Shown here: positions 38,151-58,478 of the stretch, in pieces | How positions within the stretch are numbered: the first letter of the stretch is position 1 | Layout of the letters: the number at the start of each line of letters is the position of its first letter | From: Chitinophaga filiformis | GTDB lineage: Bacteria > Bacteroidota > Bacteroidia > Chitinophagales > Chitinophagaceae | NCBI RefSeq assembly: GCF_023100805.1 | Contig: NZ_CP095855.1 | Location: 1,240,001 to 1,304,000, forward strand | Direction of reading: 5' to 3' | Length of the DNA stretch: 64,000 nucleotides | Position numbers and translations under genes: made by a program | Notes under the pieces: generated by a model | What the model saw: the letters and a program-made list of their open reading frames with translations, nothing else | What the model was told of the DNA's origin: nothing | Database searches by the model: none

Positions 38151-38183
38151 TTCGATTGAGATTCGTTTGAGATTCGTTTGAGA
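38151..38183. repeat. 11-bp tandem repeat, three copies
   Basis: Units at 38151-38161, 38162-38172 and 38173-38183; the last two are identical (TTCGTTTGAGA) and the first differs at one base. They abut the left arm of the large inverted repeat. Confidence 0.85.
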
Positions 38184-38249
38184 TGGCTTAATCTTACGTT
38201 GATCTTCCGTTTAAAAGGTAAGATCAACGTAAGATTAAGCCATCTCAAA
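38177..38249. repeat. perfect 30-bp inverted repeat
   Basis: The 30 bases at 38177-38206 are exactly complementary to 38220-38249 with a 13-base spacer (38207-38219). The arm begins TTTGAGATGGCTTAATC. If transcribed, this would form an extremely stable hairpin, but it is not followed by a T run. A second 11-bp triplet (units starting 38247, 38258, 38269) follows the right arm. Confidence 0.9.
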
Positions 38250-50082: not shown

Positions 50083-50130
50083 CCAATTGCAGACGTGTGA
50101 TTTATTTGCACGTTTGTAATTGGCTTTTTT
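50083..50130 (+). terminator. rho-independent terminator of the AAA ATPase gene
   Basis: 15-bp stem with two G-U pairs (50083-50097 with 50109-50123), then a T-rich tail. Confidence 0.88.
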
Positions 50131-50243
50131 ATTTGTCTACAAAAATGATGGACTAATATGTGAGAAAAATTGTAATATTGTTTTGATTTCGCTCCATTGG
50201 CCACCAAGCAATAGAGATTACCCGTAATTCGAAACTATATCAC

Positions 50244-51458
50244 GTGCATTTAAATCACATGGCTTGGGCCGTCCCGCTATTCCTTGGATTGATGGGAATA
50301 GAATACCTGGTGGCGCGGAAAACCGGGAAGAACTATTTCGGCTTCAGTAGTTCAGTCAGCAACATTAACATTGGTATCGCAGAGAGACTGCTGGATACCT
50401 TTACTGTAGGCATTTTCTATTTTATCTATGATTACCTGCAGCATCATTTTGGCGTGTTCAATATCAGGTCCGGTGTTTTGCTCTGGGTAGCATTGCTGAT
50501 CCTGACAGATTTTATCTGGTACTGGTATCATCGCCTGGCGCATGAAGTGAACCTGCTTTGGGCGGCTCATGTGGTGCATCATCAGAGTGAAGACTTCAAC
50601 TATACCGTATCAGCGCGTATCACTGTATTTCAGGCATTTTTCCGGATGTGCTTCTGGTCGGTACTGCCGGTGATAGGTTTCCCTGCAGCGATGATCATCA
50701 GCGTACAGCTGGTACATGGCATTTATCCGTTCTTTATCCATACCAGGACCATTGGCAGGCTGGGGATCCTTGAATACATCTTTGTAACACCTTCTCATCA
50801 CAGGGTGCATCATGCATCCAACGATAAATATCTCGATAAGAACTATGGAGATGTTTTCATCATATGGGACAAGCTGTTCGGTACATTTGCCGCGGAGGAA
50901 GAAGAACCTGAATATGGGTTGACAAAGCCACTGGACAGCCATAGCTTTCTCTGGCAACATTTTCATTTCATCCTGGAAATATTTTACACCTTAAAACAGA
51001 CCAAAGGCTTTCGTGCCCGCTGGAAAGTTGTGTTCGGCAGACCTGATCACATAAACCCGGACATCCGCCCGAAGCTGGAAGAGCGTTTCCTGTTTAGAAA
51101 TACTACTGTAGGGGCTTCAAGGAAATTGCAGCAATACGTAGTCTGGCAGATGGGAGCTATTCTGTTACTGTTATTCCTCTTCCTGTTGTTTGAAAACTAT
51201 GTGCCTGCTTTTGCACAGGTATGCGTTACCCTGGTCATTTTACTGACACTGGTGAACAGTGGCGCTATTATGGAGCAACGGCGCTGGGTATTTTACCTGG
51301 AATATGCCCGGCTGGTGATCACCTTTACGGCACTGTTCTACATATGGCCGCATCCGCTGTTATTGTTGCTTTTTGCCATTGTACAGCTGCCATTTTACCT
51401 CTATAGGTCCAGTATTGAAAAACGGTATCTGCAGCTGGTGTACGGAGGAAAGCGCTAA
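50244..51458 (+). CDS. sterol desaturase / fatty acid hydroxylase family membrane protein
   Basis: 404-residue integral membrane di-iron oxygenase. Clusters of histidines that bind the iron pair are visible: WYHRLAHEVNLLWAAHVVHHQSEDFN (HxxxH and HxxHH patterns) and FVTPSHHRVHHASND. Membrane helices lie at about 5-22, 45-65, 80-100, 130-155 and, in the C-terminal extension, about 298-400. The C-terminal extra helices are common in Bacteroidota members that act on membrane lipids or carotenoid-like substrates. Its stop overlaps the convergent ECF sigma gene by a few bases. Confidence 0.88.
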   Translation: MHLNHMAWAVPLFLGLMGIEYLVARKTGKNYFGFSSSVSNINIGIAERLLDTFTVGIFYFIYDYLQHHFGVFNIRSGVLLWVALLILTDFIWYWYHRLAHEVNLLWAAHVVHHQSEDFNYTVSARITVFQAFFRMCFWSVLPVIGFPAAMIISVQLVHGIYPFFIHTRTIGRLGILEYIFVTPSHHRVHHASNDKYLDKNYGDVFIIWDKLFGTFAAEEEEPEYGLTKPLDSHSFLWQHFHFILEIFYTLKQTKGFRARWKVVFGRPDHINPDIRPKLEERFLFRNTTVGASRKLQQYVVWQMGAILLLLFLFLLFENYVPAFAQVCVTLVILLTLVNSGAIMEQRRWVFYLEYARLVITFTALFYIWPHPLLLLLFAIVQLPFYLYRSSIEKRYLQLVYGGKR

Positions 51459-51943
51459 TGGCGGGACATCGTAGTACCTAACAGTTTGCGGGCCAGGTGA
51501 ATCCTGCTTTTGACAGTGCCCATAGGCTCATGTAACATTTCCGCGATCTCATGATATTTGAAGCCGTCGCAATACAAAAGAAGCGGCTTCTTAAAGGATA
51601 AAGGGAGCTTGTACAGGGTTCCCTTTATTTCTTTTGTACGCATCATGTTTTCTGCGTTCACGTCTGCCAGTGTATTATTGGTGATGTTTGGGGTCAGCTC
51701 TACGGAACTGGCGTATTTTGCAGACCTCCTGTAGTCGTTGATGAAGAGATTACGCATAATGGTATATAACCAGGCCCTGATATTACTCCCTTCGAGATAT
51801 TTGTCTTTGTTTTTCAGTGCTTTATACAGCGTTTCCTGGTAAAGGTCCTTTGCCGCCTCAGGGTCTTTGGTCAAAGCCATTGCTACAGGCTTAAGGAATT
51901 CGGCATTTTCTAATAATTGTGCGTGGAATGTCTCGAAGCTCAT
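51455..51943 (-). CDS. ECF RNA polymerase sigma factor
   Basis: 162-residue sigma-70 family member. Region 2 (about 12-75: LLENAEFLKPVAMALTKDPEAAKDLYQETLYKALKNKDKYLEGSNIRAWLYTIMRNLFINDYRR) and region 4 (about 105-158: LPLSFKKPLLLYCDGFKYHEIAEMLHEPMGTVKSRIHLARKLL) are complete. No anti-sigma gene is adjacent. The upstream 401-bp region carries the promoter of the exopolysaccharide unit in the opposite direction. Regulon unknown. Confidence 0.95.
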   Translation of the reverse strand: MSFETFHAQLLENAEFLKPVAMALTKDPEAAKDLYQETLYKALKNKDKYLEGSNIRAWLYTIMRNLFINDYRRSAKYASSVELTPNITNNTLADVNAENMMRTKEIKGTLYKLPLSFKKPLLLYCDGFKYHEIAEMLHEPMGTVKSRIHLARKLLGTTMSRH

Positions 51944-52097
51944 GGCCTTGGGGATGTTAGTTGTAGATTTGGGATTGATGTCTTTCGCTCAGGCGTCGGG
52001 GCCTGTTAATTTAAAATACAAACGTAGAAACAGCCGCGACTGGATTGAGCGGGCGGAAAAAAATAGCATATTCAGGTTATTGCGGGTCAATATGGCT

Positions 52098-52144
52098 GGT
52101 TTTCATTATGTTAATATTTATATGTTATTTTTAATAGCTTTGCA
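52098..52144 (+). promoter_or_regulatory. exopolysaccharide promoter element, copy A
   Basis: 47-bp AT-rich element ending in the -7 box TAGCTTTG (52135-52142). It is 44/47 identical to 54712-54758. Transcription starting near 52148 would give a roughly 195-nt leader before glf at 52345. No canonical TTTG -33 box is present, which fits activator-dependent control. Confidence 0.8.
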
Positions 52145-52344
52145 GCCGGATATTTTAGACTGTAGTTCATTAGTACCAGCAGATGACAATTTTTCAACCA
52201 GACCTATACCAGCGAAACTTAGTACAGTGTATTGATATTCAATGTAAGATGTAACGCTTAAACTACAGCCGGTTACACAATAAATTTCCATCGGGATAGA
52301 TAGTCCCTCTGTACGTTGCAGTAGCAGGACACAAAACTGAATGA

Positions 52345-53457
52345 ATGACTGAATTTGATGTTTTAATTGTGGGGAGTGGATTGTTCGGGGCGGTATTTGC
52401 GCACGAATGCAGGAAGGCCGGGAAAAAGGTGCTTGTGATAGACCGGCGTCTGCATAGTGGCGGTAATGTTTATTGCGAGGATGTCAATGGTATTAATGTA
52501 CATAAGTACGGTGCCCATATCTTCCACACCAATGATAGGCCCATCTGGGACTATGTCAATTCCTTCGTTGAGTTCAATAACTACGTGAATTCGCCATTAG
52601 CGGTGTATAAGGATGAGTTGTATAACCTGCCGTTCAATATGAACACCTTTCACCAGCTGTGGAAAGTGAAGACCCCACAGGAGGCGAAGTCCATCATTGA
52701 CAAGCAGGTGGCAGAGCTGAAAATCAACGAACCCCGGAACCTGGAAGAGCAGGCGCTTTCCCTGGTTGGAGTGGACATCTATGAGAAACTGATCAAAGGA
52801 TATACAGAAAAACAATGGGGGAGGAAAGCCAGTGAGTTGCCGGCATTTATTATTAAACGCCTGCCTTTAAGGTTTACTTATAATAATAATTACTTTAATG
52901 ATAAGTACCAGGGTATCCCTGTGGGAGGATATAATAAGCTGACACAAGGATTGCTGGAAGGTATAGAAGTAAGGTTGGGCATTGATTTCTTCTCTGCAAG
53001 GGAGGAACTGTCTGCCCTGGCAGAGACTGTAGTGTTCACAGGCCAGCTCGACGAGTTCTACCATTACCGGCATGGGATGTTGCAATACAGAAGCCTGCGT
53101 TTTGAACATGAGCAGCTTGCTACTGATAATTACCAGGGCAACGCGGTGGTCAATTATACAGAAAGGGATGTGCCATATACGAGGATCATTGAGCACAAAC
53201 ACTTCGAATTCGGCCAGCAATCGCACACTGTTATTACGAGGGAGTATCCACAGGAATGGAGCCGGGGACTGGAACCCTATTATCCTATCAATGATGATAC
53301 TAATGCCCGCGTCTATAAGCAGTACAAAGCGCTGGCAGACCAGGAAACCAATATCATATTTGGAGGCCGCCTGGCAGAGTACCGTTACTATGACATGCAC
53401 CAGGTGATAGGATCAGCGCTTTACCAGGTAAAGCAATACTTAAAAATATCTAAATAA
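52345..53457 (+). CDS. glf: UDP-galactopyranose mutase
   Basis: 370-residue flavoenzyme converting UDP-galactopyranose to UDP-galactofuranose for surface glycans. FAD-binding VGSGLFGAVFAHECRKAGKKVLVIDRR is at the N-terminus; family motifs follow: HSGGNVYCEDVNGINVHKYGAHIFHTND, YTEKQWGRKASELPAFIIKRLPLRFTYNNNYFNDKYQGIP, and the C-terminal GRLAEYRYYDMHQVI. Galactofuranose is therefore expected in the polymer. A nearby ATG at 52341 is out of frame. It heads the first exopolysaccharide unit. Confidence 0.96.
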   Translation: MTEFDVLIVGSGLFGAVFAHECRKAGKKVLVIDRRLHSGGNVYCEDVNGINVHKYGAHIFHTNDRPIWDYVNSFVEFNNYVNSPLAVYKDELYNLPFNMNTFHQLWKVKTPQEAKSIIDKQVAELKINEPRNLEEQALSLVGVDIYEKLIKGYTEKQWGRKASELPAFIIKRLPLRFTYNNNYFNDKYQGIPVGGYNKLTQGLLEGIEVRLGIDFFSAREELSALAETVVFTGQLDEFYHYRHGMLQYRSLRFEHEQLATDNYQGNAVVNYTERDVPYTRIIEHKHFEFGQQSHTVITREYPQEWSRGLEPYYPINDDTNARVYKQYKALADQETNIIFGGRLAEYRYYDMHQVIGSALYQVKQYLKISK

Positions 53458-53477
53458 CAGAAAGGGAAACGTCTGAC

Positions 53478-54467
53478 ATGATCCAGATCCATGAAAATAC
53501 CAGGATATATATAATGTGTCCTCCGCGGATAGCCTCCGGCGGGCCTGAATTGCTTCACCAGCTGGCCTATAAATTAGGGAAAAGAGGCTTTGACGTAGCG
53601 ATGTACTATTATCCTAATGATGTCGAGCAGCCTGTTAGTGAAAACTATCTTAAATACAATTGTAAGTATGTGACGGAGGTAGAAGACAGGGAAGAGAACC
53701 TGGTCATCATCCCTGAGTTGTACTTTTATTTTGCCGATCAGTTCAAAAACATACGGAAATGCGGCTGGTGGCTGAGTGTCGACAATCTGTTTAAAGCTAT
53801 TGAGGCGCCGGCGCATTACCGGATGATCCGGAAGCTGAAGATAAAATGGCTGCACCGTGCGGTGACGATCAATGGGAAAGTAAGGGGTAAATTCAATTAT
53901 CACCTTGCACAATCTGAATATGCCGTTGACTTTTTAAGACAATGGAAGATAGATGCGGTTTACCTGTCAGATTATCTGAATGCCGATTTCCTGAAGGCCT
54001 CCAGGGAGGTGGATGTAAGAGAAAAAAAGCCGCAGATCCTTTATAATCCGCTGAAAGGGTATCGGTTTACCAAAAAGATCATGGCCGCTATGCCGGAGGC
54101 CAGGTGGATACCTTTGCAGAAACTGACTCCAGCCCAGGTGGGTGAGCTCTTGAAAGAATCAATGGTCTACATCGACTTCGGTCACCATCCTGGCAAGGAC
54201 CGTTTCCCCAGGGAAGCAGCTATTTATAAGTGCTGTGTGATCACAGGAAAGAGAGGCGCAGCCGCCTACCAGGAAGATGTGCCTTTGCCGGAGCAGTATA
54301 AGATTGCCGACAGGAGGAGTAACATTCCGGCAATCGTGAAGCTGATCAAATCCTGCCTGGCAGACTATGACAAGCATATCGATAATTTTGCAGCTTATCG
54401 CGATTGGATCTACAAAGAGGAAGAGGCGTTTGAGAAGGATATCACACAGATCTTTGTGAAGGTGTAA
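53478..54467 (+). CDS. putative glycosyltransferase, GT-B-like
   Basis: 329-residue cytoplasmic protein starting IYIMCPPRIASGGPELLHQLAYKLGKRGFDVAMYYY, the N-terminal Rossmann layout of GT4-like enzymes. The second half has PQILYNPLKGYRFTKKIMAAMPEARWIPLQKLTPAQVGELLKESMVYIDFGHHPGKDRFPREAAIYKCCVITGKRG, where PREA near residue 245 is in the place of the E-x7-E region. The family is not firm; some annotation would call it hypothetical. It lies 20 bp after glf and is closed by a terminator, so the two form a short operon. Confidence 0.65.
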   Translation: MIQIHENTRIYIMCPPRIASGGPELLHQLAYKLGKRGFDVAMYYYPNDVEQPVSENYLKYNCKYVTEVEDREENLVIIPELYFYFADQFKNIRKCGWWLSVDNLFKAIEAPAHYRMIRKLKIKWLHRAVTINGKVRGKFNYHLAQSEYAVDFLRQWKIDAVYLSDYLNADFLKASREVDVREKKPQILYNPLKGYRFTKKIMAAMPEARWIPLQKLTPAQVGELLKESMVYIDFGHHPGKDRFPREAAIYKCCVITGKRGAAAYQEDVPLPEQYKIADRRSNIPAIVKLIKSCLADYDKHIDNFAAYRDWIYKEEEAFEKDITQIFVKV

Positions 54468-54518
54468 TTGGCTGTAAATTAATTAAATATCGTACCGTGG
54501 CACGGTTTCTGAATAAAG

Positions 54519-54547
54519 AAGGGGTCTTTAACAAGGATCCCTTTTTT
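54519..54547 (+). terminator. terminator of the glf unit
   Basis: 8-bp stem with one G-U pair (54519-54526 with 54536-54543), 9-nt loop, T run to 54547. Confidence 0.75.
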
Positions 54548-54711
54548 ATTGATACCGGCAGCTGGAGTCCTCCGGCTGTAACTGTTAAGACAAAAGTTCG
54601 TTACATATATATGTAAACGTTTGCTAATTGTTGATGATTGAATATAAGGTGATAACAGGCGCGTTTGCCAATTCGGAGCCATGTTACCCTTCATATGATA
54701 ATTATTTAATT

Positions 54712-54758
54712 GGTTTCCACTATGTTAATATTTATATGTTATTTTTAATAGATTTGCA
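54712..54758 (+). promoter_or_regulatory. exopolysaccharide promoter element, copy B
   Basis: Second copy of the 52098 element, ending in the -7 box TAGATTTG (54749-54756), about 90 bp before the Wza-like gene. Only three of 47 positions differ from copy A. Confidence 0.8.
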
Positions 54759-54846: not shown

Positions 54847-57342
54847 ATGTTGAAAAAAGTATTACTGCTGCAACTGTTATTGATGGCCTTTGGTTATTGT
54901 GTTCGTGCGCAGTCAGTTACGCAGTCGCAAATAAGCCAGATAAAGGTGGATAATCTCTCAGATGATCAGATCAGACAACTGGTAGCGAAGATGAAACAAA
55001 ATAATATCAGCTATTCCCAGATAGATGACTATGCAGCCCAAAGGGGGATTCCCAATGATGAAGTGGTGAAACTGAAGGCGCGCATCACGCAGTTAAATCT
55101 TGACAAGGAACTTTCTTCTTCCGGCAGTAGTGGTAATTTGTTCAGCCAGGACACATCCGGCAGGAAATATAGCGACCAGTCGGACACTATTTATTACTGG
55201 CGTGAAAAATACAAGCAGATAAAGGATAAGGAAGACTTTGAAAAAGAGCAACGTCGCAGGAGGATATTCGGTACAGAATTGTTTAGTAACCAGAACCTGA
55301 CATTCGAGCCTAACTTACGTATGGCAACCCCTCCCAATTATAAGATTGCAACGGACGATGAACTTGTGATTGACGTCTATGGCTACTCAGAAGTACAACA
55401 TACTTTAAAGGTAAGTCCTGAGGGATATATCAGGATCCCCTACCTGGGGCCGGTTTATGTGAACGGTCTTACGATGGAAGAGGCAAAAACGCGTATCACC
55501 AAACAGCTGAGTACTATTTATTCCGGTATCAGAACGGGTAATACATCTGTTCAGGTTTCCCTGGGAAATATACGTAGTATCAAGGTAACGCTCATAGGAG
55601 AAATTACCCGTCCGGGTACTTATACATTGCCCTCACTGGCCACTGTGGCGAATGCCCTCTATGTTTCCGGCGGGCCTAATGAAAATGGTTCTTTCAGAAG
55701 TATAGATGTGATCCGTAACGGGAAGGCAATTGCCACCTTTGATTTGTATGATTTCCTGCTGCACGGAGACCTTACGAACAACGTGGTATTGCAGGACCAG
55801 GACATCGTGAAGGTGAATCCTTATAAAATGAGGGTAGAGCTTTTGGGAGAGATTAAACGTCCGGCTATTTTCGAAACAAAAGAAACAGAGACCCTGCAGC
55901 AGGTGATTGACTTTGCAGGTGGATATACTGATAATTCTTTCCGGGATGTGATCCGGGCTTTACGTGTTACCAGCAAGGCCAGGGAGTTTGTGAACATACC
56001 GGCAGATTCGGTAGCGCTGTTCCGCCTGAAATCAGGTGACAGGTTCTATGTTGATTCAATAGTAAACCGCTATACTAACCGTGTAACTATTTCCGGTGCT
56101 GTGTTCCATCCGGGAGAATATGCGCTGGAGGATAAAATGACTGTCGGAGATCTCATCAAACGTGCCGACGGGATCCAGGAGGTGGCGGCAACTTCCCGTG
56201 GTGTGATACGCAGATTACAGGAAGATTTTACACCAGCCTTTATCAACTTTAATGTACTGGATGCCATAGCAGGAAGGAATAACCCGTCGTTACAGCGGGA
56301 AGACAGCGTAATAATATTTTCCAAGCTGGGCATCCGGGAACCATACCTGGTGAAGATTGAAGGAGAAGTTAATCAGCCGGGATATTTTAGCTACGGAGAC
56401 AGTATGCACCTGGAAGATCTTATCCTGATGGCAGGAGGTCTCAAGGATGCAGCAAGCCTGAAGCATGTGGAGATCTCCCGCCGTATCCGTACCGGGGGTA
56501 AGTATGATTCCACAGATGTGAGAATGGCCATCACTGAGCAGTTTGATATTAATGCAGACCTGTCTGGTAATCCGGCGGCAACAGCTTATGTGTTGCAGCC
56601 ATTTGATGAGGTAATGGTGCGCAGGTCGCCGTCTTATAGTCAGCAGGCCAATATACTGCTTGACGGAGAGGTAGTGTATCCCGGACTGTATGCCATCAAT
56701 ACGAAGAAAGAACGTATATCTGATGTTATCAAAAGAGCGGGTGGTCTGCGTCCGGAGGCATCAGCGGAAGGTGCTTTATTATTGCGCAGGACTTTCACCA
56801 ACGAGCAGGACAGTACTTTCCTGCTGAGCAAGCTGGAAGTGTTCAATAACAAAGTGAAGGATAGTATCGATGTGGCCAGGACCCGTGCAACAGTGGAGCG
56901 CAACCAGCAGCTGTTAGGTATACAGCTGGACGAGATACTGGAGCATCCGGGTTCCAAATATGACCTCTACCTGGAAGAGGGCGATGTAATCAGGATCCCA
57001 AAGAAACAGCAGACAGTACAATTATTTGGAGAAGTGTATTTCCCAAAGAAGGTACGGTTTGACAATGGCTTTTCCTTCAGAAGCTATGTACGTGGGGCCG
57101 GTGGGTTTACGTCCCAGGCATTAAAGAGAAGAAGTTATATAGTATATGCGAATGGTGAAGTGAAAAGCACAAGGAAGATGTTATTCTTTAACAGTTATCC
57201 GAAAGTGAAACCAGGAGCGGAAATATATGTACCTACCAAACCAGACAGAAAGGGATTGACAGCGGCTGCTACTGTAGGGTTGGCGAGTGCATTGGCGTCT
57301 TTCGCATTGATAGTGGTTACAATTATCAATTCAACAAAGTAG
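54847..57342 (+). CDS. polysaccharide export outer-membrane protein, Wza-like with SLBB repeats
   Basis: 831-residue exporter. A signal peptide (MLKKVLLLQLLLMAFGYCVRAQ) is chosen at the ATG 54847 over one 18 bp upstream. The poly_export domain (about 170-250: YKIATDDELVIDVYGYSEVQHTLKVSPEGYIRIPYLGPVYVNGLTMEEAKTRI) is followed by several SLBB repeats (VTLIGEITRPGTYTLPSLATVANALYVSGG; VELLGEIKRPAIFETKETETLQQVIDFAGG; and others to about 780), and a C-terminal membrane helix (ATVGLASALASFALIVVTII). It forms the outer-membrane channel for the polymer. It is longer than E. coli Wza (379 aa), as is usual in Bacteroidota, and is followed by a Wzz-like gene. Confidence 0.94.
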   Translation: MLKKVLLLQLLLMAFGYCVRAQSVTQSQISQIKVDNLSDDQIRQLVAKMKQNNISYSQIDDYAAQRGIPNDEVVKLKARITQLNLDKELSSSGSSGNLFSQDTSGRKYSDQSDTIYYWREKYKQIKDKEDFEKEQRRRRIFGTELFSNQNLTFEPNLRMATPPNYKIATDDELVIDVYGYSEVQHTLKVSPEGYIRIPYLGPVYVNGLTMEEAKTRITKQLSTIYSGIRTGNTSVQVSLGNIRSIKVTLIGEITRPGTYTLPSLATVANALYVSGGPNENGSFRSIDVIRNGKAIATFDLYDFLLHGDLTNNVVLQDQDIVKVNPYKMRVELLGEIKRPAIFETKETETLQQVIDFAGGYTDNSFRDVIRALRVTSKAREFVNIPADSVALFRLKSGDRFYVDSIVNRYTNRVTISGAVFHPGEYALEDKMTVGDLIKRADGIQEVAATSRGVIRRLQEDFTPAFINFNVLDAIAGRNNPSLQREDSVIIFSKLGIREPYLVKIEGEVNQPGYFSYGDSMHLEDLILMAGGLKDAASLKHVEISRRIRTGGKYDSTDVRMAITEQFDINADLSGNPAATAYVLQPFDEVMVRRSPSYSQQANILLDGEVVYPGLYAINTKKERISDVIKRAGGLRPEASAEGALLLRRTFTNEQDSTFLLSKLEVFNNKVKDSIDVARTRATVERNQQLLGIQLDEILEHPGSKYDLYLEEGDVIRIPKKQQTVQLFGEVYFPKKVRFDNGFSFRSYVRGAGGFTSQALKRRSYIVYANGEVKSTRKMLFFNSYPKVKPGAEIYVPTKPDRKGLTAAATVGLASALASFALIVVTIINSTK

Positions 57343-57392: not shown

Positions 57393-58478
57393 ATGGAACA
57401 TTCAAAACAGGACGCTGTTAATAATAATGCTGAAATATCCCTGAGGGAGCTGTTGATAAAGTTGGGGGAATGGTGGCGGTTTCTGCTTAGTAAGTGGCTG
57501 ATCATATGTATATGTGGGATAGTGGGGGCCGGCTTGGGATTGACGCTGGCATTGATTAAAAAGAAAAGTTATGTAGCAGAGCTGACTTTCGTCATGGAAG
57601 ACAGCAAATCAAGCTCATTAAGCGCATATGCAGGTTTAGCCAGCCAATTCGGAATTGATCTGGGAGGTGGGAGTGGAGACATAGGTGTATTTTCCGGGGA
57701 AAATATGCAGGGGTTCCTTAAGACCAGGCTGATGGTGGAAAAGACATTGCTATCGCCGGTAACAGTGAATGGTAAGCAGATCTCCCTGGCGGATCTGTAT
57801 ATTGACTTTAACAAGCTGCAAAGTAATTGGAAGGACAAACCGATCGCCGGATTACATTTCCCTTACGGACTGGATCGCAAGCAATTTACCTTACAGCAGG
57901 ACAGCGTACTTAATACTATCCAGGAAAATATTGTCAAGTACAATCTTGAAGTGGCAAAACCAGATAAAGCATTAAGTTTTGTATCGGTAAAGGTTACATC
58001 AGGCCATGAGCTTTTCTCAAAAGTTTTTACCGAAACATTGGTAAACAAAGCGATCGACTTTTACGTAGATACGAAGACCAAGCGCTCAAAGGCCAATGTG
58101 GATAAACTACAGGCCACCGCCGATTCATTGGAAGTTTTGCTGAATAACAAGTCATACTCTCTGGCTGTTACACAGGACATGAATGTGAATCCTATCAGGC
58201 AGGTCTCTAATGTAGGTACACAGAAGCAGGCGCGGGAGAAACTGATGCTGGAAACCATGTATACAGAAGTGGTTAAAAACCTTGAGATAAGTAAAATGTC
58301 AATGGCCCAGGAAACGCCATTGATACAAATCGTTGATTCGCCTATTCTGCCTTTGAAGATAGAAAAGCTGGGTAAACTGAAAGCACTGCTGATAGGAGGA
58401 ATTCTGGCGGGCTTTTTATGTCTTGTGTGGTTGATCGGGCGAAGGATCTTGAGGGAAGTGATGCAGGAGGAAAACTAA
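57393..58478 (+). CDS. polysaccharide co-polymerase, Wzz/chain-length determinant family
   Basis: 361-residue inner-membrane protein with membrane helices at about 31-55 (SKWLIICICGIVGAGLGLTLALIK) and 328-348 (ALLIGGILAGFLCLVWLIG), enclosing a large periplasmic coiled coil. The Wzz start (FVMEDSKSSSLSAYAGLASQFG) is typical. It lacks the tyrosine-kinase domain of Wzc, so chain-length control without that module, or a separate kinase, is inferred. It lies between the exporter and pseB. Confidence 0.9.
   Translation: MEHSKQDAVNNNAEISLRELLIKLGEWWRFLLSKWLIICICGIVGAGLGLTLALIKKKSYVAELTFVMEDSKSSSLSAYAGLASQFGIDLGGGSGDIGVFSGENMQGFLKTRLMVEKTLLSPVTVNGKQISLADLYIDFNKLQSNWKDKPIAGLHFPYGLDRKQFTLQQDSVLNTIQENIVKYNLEVAKPDKALSFVSVKVTSGHELFSKVFTETLVNKAIDFYVDTKTKRSKANVDKLQATADSLEVLLNNKSYSLAVTQDMNVNPIRQVSNVGTQKQAREKLMLETMYTEVVKNLEISKMSMAQETPLIQIVDSPILPLKIEKLGKLKALLIGGILAGFLCLVWLIGRRILREVMQEEN

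Follow-up and report, generated by a model that had tools for sequence, protein, structure and literature searches.

The question raised by the exopolysaccharide locus of Chitinophaga filiformis is why one short sequence should stand, nearly unchanged, in front of two units of surface-polymer genes, and what would read it. A preliminary description of the 64,000-nt stretch of DNA analysed here (the window) had reported a 47-bp duplication, beyond chance and set in unrelated flanks, whose copies end in TAGnTTTG, lack a TTTG at -33, and lead to glf in one case and to a Wza-like exporter in the other. All of this holds up. The duplication is real and one base longer (48 bp), 45 of the 48 bases being identical (94%, 3 mismatches). 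The flanks of the two copies, 100 bp on each side, share 26% and 23% identity, which is the level of unrelated DNA, and a 21-bp piece of the element, with as many as 3 mismatches allowed, matches the window at exactly two places and none of 100 shuffled versions of it. The terminal boxes are TAGCTTTG and TAGATTTG, the genes that follow are those named before (Table 1), and no TTTG can be read at -33 in either copy.

Table 1. Positions of the two copies of the element and of neighbouring features, numbered from the first base of the window
Feature	Position	Strand	Remarks
ECF sigma factor gene	51455..51943	-	Adjoins copy 1 in divergent orientation; regulator candidate
Copy 1 of the element	52097..52144	+	Near-palindrome 52112-52127, T-run, -7 box 52135-52142
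-7 box of copy 1, TAGCTTTG	52135..52142	+	Predicted transcription start about 52147
glf, UDP-galactopyranose mutase	52345..53457	+	First gene after copy 1 (ATG 52345); TIGR00031, E 7.8e-129
Glycosyltransferase-like gene after glf	53478..54467	+	Assigned by context only; neither Pfam nor NCBIfam gave a match
Possible intrinsic terminator in the gap between glf unit and copy 2	54519..54547	+	AAGGGGTC-loop of 9-GATCCCTT-TTTT, by eye
Copy 2 of the element	54711..54758	+	Near-palindrome 54726-54741, -7 box 54749-54756
-7 box of copy 2, TAGATTTG	54749..54756	+	Predicted transcription start about 54761
wza-like polysaccharide exporter gene	54847..57342	+	Poly_export and SLBB domains; ATG 54847
wzc/Wzz-like chain-length protein gene	57393..58478	+	Follows wza in the export unit; Wzz matched weakly, under the Pfam cut-off

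The possible terminator is missing from the list produced by the scan, for which the loop limit was 8. The transcription starts are predictions, with the spacing taken from the sigma-A motif TAnnTTTG of Flavobacterium psychrophilum, located at -12 to -5 in the motif description of PMC9723704; between the start predicted for copy 2 and the ATG of wza there would be a leader of about 85-86 nt.

A wza match at E 1e-150 is present in 77 of the 79 genomes of the genus. Around these genes (in G114, around the element) 78 stretches were fetched, which with the window gives 79 loci, two from G050 and none from G006. Upstream of wza, at a distance of 99-133 bp, 77 of the 79 loci have a 32-bp core, TAACATTTATATGTTATTTTTAATAgATTTGC; a locus was counted when it matched TAACATTTATATGTTATTTTTAATAGATTTG at 23 or more of 31 positions, and the distance was measured from the position aligned with window base 54850, 3 bases inside wza. 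The two exceptions are G050, at its second wza copy, and G114, whose locus is damaged. In a search of the genomes themselves, a 27-base core with up to 3 mismatches was found in 64 of 79, mostly once per genome, and the reversed 27-base control in none of the 79. Conservation is confined to a narrow stretch: random pairs of loci share 90% identity across the 32-bp core, 42% in the 16 bp upstream of it and 52% in the 13 bp downstream, falling to 28-32% in blocks farther away. Promoters usually drift quickly. The exporter proteins themselves diverge to as little as 58% identity within the genus, while the element is retained almost letter for letter in 77 genomes, and this genus-wide conservation lends strong support to the earlier suggestion of a promoter linked to surface-polymer genes.

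The upstream regions of other genes at the locus serve as a measure of how unusual this is. The best 32-mer within 250 bp upstream of wza averages 29.8 of 32 matches over 54 dissimilar loci, and the same measure gives means of 24.4-26.2 for four neighbouring genes (dissimilar loci: ECF 42, FA_hydroxylase 31, AAA 24, DinB 19). Loci were taken as dissimilar below 70% wza identity and with near-duplicates removed (54 of 59 kept for wza), and the first 12 loci in every set supplied the reference words; left out were wzc, whose upstream region lies inside wza (25.0 over 56 loci), and spl, for which there were too few loci. These means indicate that the neighbouring upstream regions also contain conserved blocks, although weaker ones. 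One of them, upstream of the fatty acid hydroxylase gene (FA_hydroxylase), has a partial two-fold symmetry (TTTTATTAGTCTACAAAAATAGTAGGATAATT in locus L081; mean 25.6 of 32 matches), and the window carries a similar sequence, TTTGTCTACAAAAATGATGG, at 50123-50154. This block may be the operator of another regulator. Elsewhere in the window, a 36-bp inverted repeat with arms that are 94% complementary and separated by one base (38177-38249) separates a ligA-like gene from a large, fused gene resembling a mutase (both named by eye), and short direct repeats lie just upstream of it.

The core is composed of several distinct parts. A -7 box, TAnnTTTG, is found in all 77 wza-side copies and varies only at nn (GA in 53, AA in 20, GC in 4), which is the pattern expected of a box read by sigma-A; the T-run likewise contains TTTT in 77 of 77. 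Bases 1-16 of the consensus core form a perfect 6+6 palindrome, TAACAT-TTAT-ATGTTA, or in general form the near-palindrome TAACAT-N4-ATGTTA, which spans about -35 to -20 when counted from the F. psychrophilum box spacing. All six pairs are kept in 37 of the 77 copies, five in 25 and fewer in 15, and one pair is broken (TAATAT) in both copies of the window. Covariation between the arms is weak, with a score of 0.128 against a shuffled mean of 0.112, a value reached by 16 of 500 shuffles; when the arm partners are slid by 1-3 columns the score is at most 0.059. The centre and the T-run are conserved as strongly as the arms, which is more than a plain N4 spacer would call for and counts against the reading proposed below. 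Sigma-A promoters of the Bacteroidota have a -33 box of TTTG or TTG, and at this place the consensus reads TAAC or TAAT. In addition to the core, some of the loci have a looser stretch resembling TGATTTTCA another 6-14 bases upstream, and positions 39-41 (about +4 to +6, past the predicted start) of an alignment of 73 of the 77 loci read TTT, with 83%, 96% and 100% conservation.

The element is probably a dedicated sigma-A promoter of the Chitinophaga exopolysaccharide export locus, helped by a factor bound in its spacer and copied along with gene cassettes. The sequences themselves show the element, where it lies and which way it points, how far it is conserved, which genes adjoin it and that it is confined to the genus as far as searched. 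What we infer from them concerns its activity as a promoter, the start point, a bound factor, co-regulation and the sequence of events in the duplication, as follows. The sigma-A RNA polymerase would recognise the -7 box TAnnTTTG, and a sequence-specific factor, probably a dimer, would bind TAACAT-N4-ATGTTA at about -35 to -20, at the place of the -33 box, making the promoter usable. Transcription would then begin some 5 bases past the box and reach wza after a leader of about 85 nt. Where glycan cassettes came to lie next to wza by insertion (glf and one further gene in the case of the window), the promoter would have been duplicated, and cassette and export genes would thereby answer the same signal. 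The shared activator suggested in the preliminary description would have its place in the conserved near-palindrome that replaces the -33 box; no such factor was found, and this part of the earlier claim is kept as a suggestion. A strong sigma-A promoter that needs no specific factor, and whose conservation reflects its intrinsic strength and the shape of its DNA, would account for the A/T-rich core and the invariant TTTT, and could point to a search for a regulator that found none, but it leaves the near two-fold symmetry unexplained and does not sit well with the lesser conservation upstream of the four neighbouring genes. It is considered unlikely.

Another candidate reader of the element is the ECF sigma factor encoded beside the locus. 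One-target regulators are often divergent neighbours of their target. Of the 77 loci, 64 carry an oppositely oriented ECF gene on the upstream side in the fetched DNA; for 43 of those 64, no more than 670 bp separate the gene start from the wza-side core. Genomes with an ECF match at E <= 1e-25 number 78 of 79, the exception being G006, which is also without a wza match (E 1e-150) and a strong copy of the element. The ECF factor (or its paralogue) might then read the promoter directly, with TAAC as its -35 and the box as its -10. There are two ECF paralogues, one adjoining the locus and the other mostly about 60-100 kb away, and their distribution speaks against this reading. Eleven genomes are without the neighbouring paralogue, the single ECF match left to them being 60-80 kb from wza, yet their element is intact, with 26-31 of 31 matches; ten of the eleven were fetched for the tree and fall in the clade of the distant paralogue with a support of 100/100. 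In the window's own clade the neighbouring ECF gene is highly diverged (branch 1.54) and the core is little changed. By eye, no copy of the element is seen in the 90-bp stretches that precede the start codons of the ECF genes. Moreover, the F. psychrophilum motif assigned to ECF factors (SM6) has CGT in its -10 region, going by the motif description in PMC9723704, and here the consensus at that place is TTATTTTTAATAGATTTGC, without CGT, in a box that fits sigma-A. Direct reading by an ECF factor is judged distinctly unlikely. By its position the ECF factor would still be a fair candidate for the regulator, although its local form appears dispensable and the promoter un-ECF-like. In loci outside the window's clade (for example L107 and L112), the upstream ECF gene is directly preceded at its start codon by a conserved sequence of about TTTGTTTAAATTAGTTAAGGCAAAACTTAAAC, possibly the ECF gene's own control site.

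To place all copies in the genus, a profile was built from 73 of the 77 loci, leaving out two near-duplicates (L075, L079) and two weak loci (L119, L127). It returned 96 strong copies (E <= 2.2e-5) in 77 of the 79 genomes; the Infernal searches used stricter filters, by which some weak matches were lost. Behind the strong copies there is a gap, from E 2.2e-5 to 0.0013. The match at 0.0013 (G113), which adjoins an ECF gene and has a cytidylyltransferase gene behind it, is probably real. Among the weaker matches a few also lie inside the locus (G100, G031), and the remaining ones look like noise. The two genomes without a strong copy are G056, which has a weak wza-side copy (0.0092), and G006 (0.286). 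The latter is the only genome of the set in which wza, ECF and strong element are missing together at these thresholds; this may reflect a joint loss of the three, or a failure to detect them in a fragmented assembly (530 contigs).

One strong copy is present in 60 of the 77 genomes and two or three in the other 17. All 96 are on the strand of wza and 95 lie within 17 kb of it, the remaining one (G009) being 44 kb off. Directly before wza are 75 copies, and 19 of the other 21 have glycan genes downstream: glf in nine cases (one with a shortened frame), nucleotide-sugar dehydrogenases in four (one split), nucleotidyltransferases and flippases in two each, and a DegT aminotransferase and a wzc-like gene in one each. 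The last two copies precede a wza-like relic, recognised by eye, and a wza at 0.6 kb. Pfam identifications of the downstream genes come from 10 representatives, including one that follows the weaker copy of G113; the gene called wzc-like has no Pfam match and was named by its similarity to wzc of the window. In many species the sole copy sits between the ECF gene and wza, and where genes have been inserted between these two, as glf and one more gene in the window, a copy is often found at both ends.

The positions of the extra copies, at the edges of gene insertions and in one case before a wza-like relic, could also be taken to mean that the element serves chiefly in recombination, as a junction of short homology where glycan cassettes are swapped. 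The copies of the window are closer to each other than are the corresponding pairs of G007, G048, G107 and G115, as if homogenised, and in the window's clade they may indeed have been homogenised recently. A junction would not explain why the single-copy genomes conserve the element as well, why every copy is oriented toward the gene it precedes, or why nn is free within an otherwise fixed -7 box, which fits a promoter, and as the main function of the element it is very improbable. These likelihoods overlap and do not add up to certainty: recombination of cassettes can hold together with the promoter reading, from which the factor-free alternative differs by one step.

Two cases of decay bear on function. 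In G103 the box of the glf-side copy has become TTTA and the glf frame is shortened, and the copy standing before the wza relic of G003 has a broken box. Judged from their sequences, these look like relaxed constraint following gene loss and would support a function of the element, as single cases. Changes to the box also occur beyond damaged genes, since the dehydrogenase-side copy of G003 likewise has TTTA and the gene behind it looks intact. About 12.3 kb upstream of wza in the G003 locus (L120), the decayed copy is followed by the wza-like N-terminal relic (by eye) and then by a nucleotidyltransferase-like gene, an arrangement that is perhaps the fossil of a rearrangement of the locus.

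The preliminary description had further proposed a regulon signature and a genome search for more copies. That search, with a 38-mer at up to 3 mismatches, returned only the two window copies from the entire C. filiformis genome (8.26 Mb, one contig), which goes halfway against the proposal and is outweighed by the conservation in related species. The signature is retained in a narrow sense, as one to three copies per genome near wza; in the source genome it extends to just two. A genome-wide regulon is ruled out by this two-copy genome together with the sharp gap after the 96 strong copies. As far as can be judged from sequence, the element is a one-locus promoter of unusual constancy, with no wider regulon in the source genome. 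The bare 16-bp near-palindrome, with up to 1 mismatch, gave 12 sites in 8 genomes and its reversed control 2; as nine of the 12 are the element itself, no self-regulated factor gene turned up in this search.

Outside the genus, none of 292 genomes of the order carries the core at up to 3 mismatches. Among 154 genomes of the family outside the genus the best profile match has an E-value of 0.0015 and none matches the full core; weak matches at E 0.0015-0.01 occur in 11 of them against a nominal 1-2, these E-values being rough. Of 40 loci fetched from other genera, 34 contained a piece of wza as an anchor (six were dropped), and no convincing site was found upstream of these wza homologues, the top scorer, a look-alike in G197 (-1.4), being no better than the reverse-strand control (-1.2). 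Viral contigs gave no match to the element. In a collection of 84,980 species, an exact 25-base pattern was found in 33 stretches, 31 of them labelled Chitinophaga; the other two, labelled as a [Flexibacter] strain and a Flavihumibacter MAG, apparently correspond to G111 and G116, which belong to the same genus according to the genome search. With no convincing copy outside, the element appears to be found only in Chitinophaga. No studies on the control of Chitinophaga exopolysaccharide were found in the open-licence PMC literature, nor, by title or beginning of abstract, any work on this promoter.

It is possible, though on balance doubtful, that the element belongs to a private system, in which one dedicated regulator reads a 32-bp sequence exclusive to the exopolysaccharide locus of the genus, and in which cassettes enter together with a copy of the promoter; the locus would then expand module by module, each tagged with the promoter and all under one control. 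The element provides a handle, as bait DNA or in a reporter, for finding the exopolysaccharide switch of Chitinophaga, and it marks, by sequence alone, the genes of the exopolysaccharide locus and the points at which cassettes have been inserted.

Several known systems can be compared. The enterobacterial JUMPstart/ops is a short conserved element located just upstream of many polysaccharide clusters, where it acts in elongation through RfaH. The Chitinophaga element resembles it as a short conserved sequence upstream of polysaccharide genes and common to otherwise different loci, but differs in being A/T-rich, in having a -7 box within it and in being found in one genus only. An elongation signal of this type, with no role in initiation, would have to be read by a specialised NusG relative (RfaH/UpxY-like). 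Its similar place just upstream of polysaccharide genes would suit such a signal, and 70 of 79 genomes do have at least two NusG-family matches, but the nine that have a single match, and hence no specialised paralogue, still carry a strong element; the -7 box inside the element is perfect, and the region matches no Rfam family. This explanation is highly improbable.

In Bacteroides fragilis, conserved invertible promoter regions precede several capsule loci, and a TAnnTTTG promoter is mentioned in the same account (PMC3090145, in its part on these promoters). The likeness is that of conserved promoters at polysaccharide loci in Bacteroidota; the Chitinophaga element differs from what is described there in being mostly a single copy per genome (60 of 77), with none of 96 copies inverted relative to the locus. 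A phase-variable promoter is ruled out by the lack of any inverted copy among the 96, and no inverted repeats of at least 28 bp surround the copies of the window. With the ECF-assigned promoters, as their motifs are given for SM6 (PMC9723704) and SigP (PMC4800418), the element shares AAC near -33 and an adjacent ECF gene but not the CGT in the -10 region, the comparison with the SigP motif being an informal one. With the sigma-A promoters of the Bacteroidota, by the motif in PMC9723704, the element agrees in the -7 box TAnnTTTG in 77 of 77 copies, and it differs from them in that the TTTG at -33 is replaced by a near-palindrome and a T-run of together about 23 bp.
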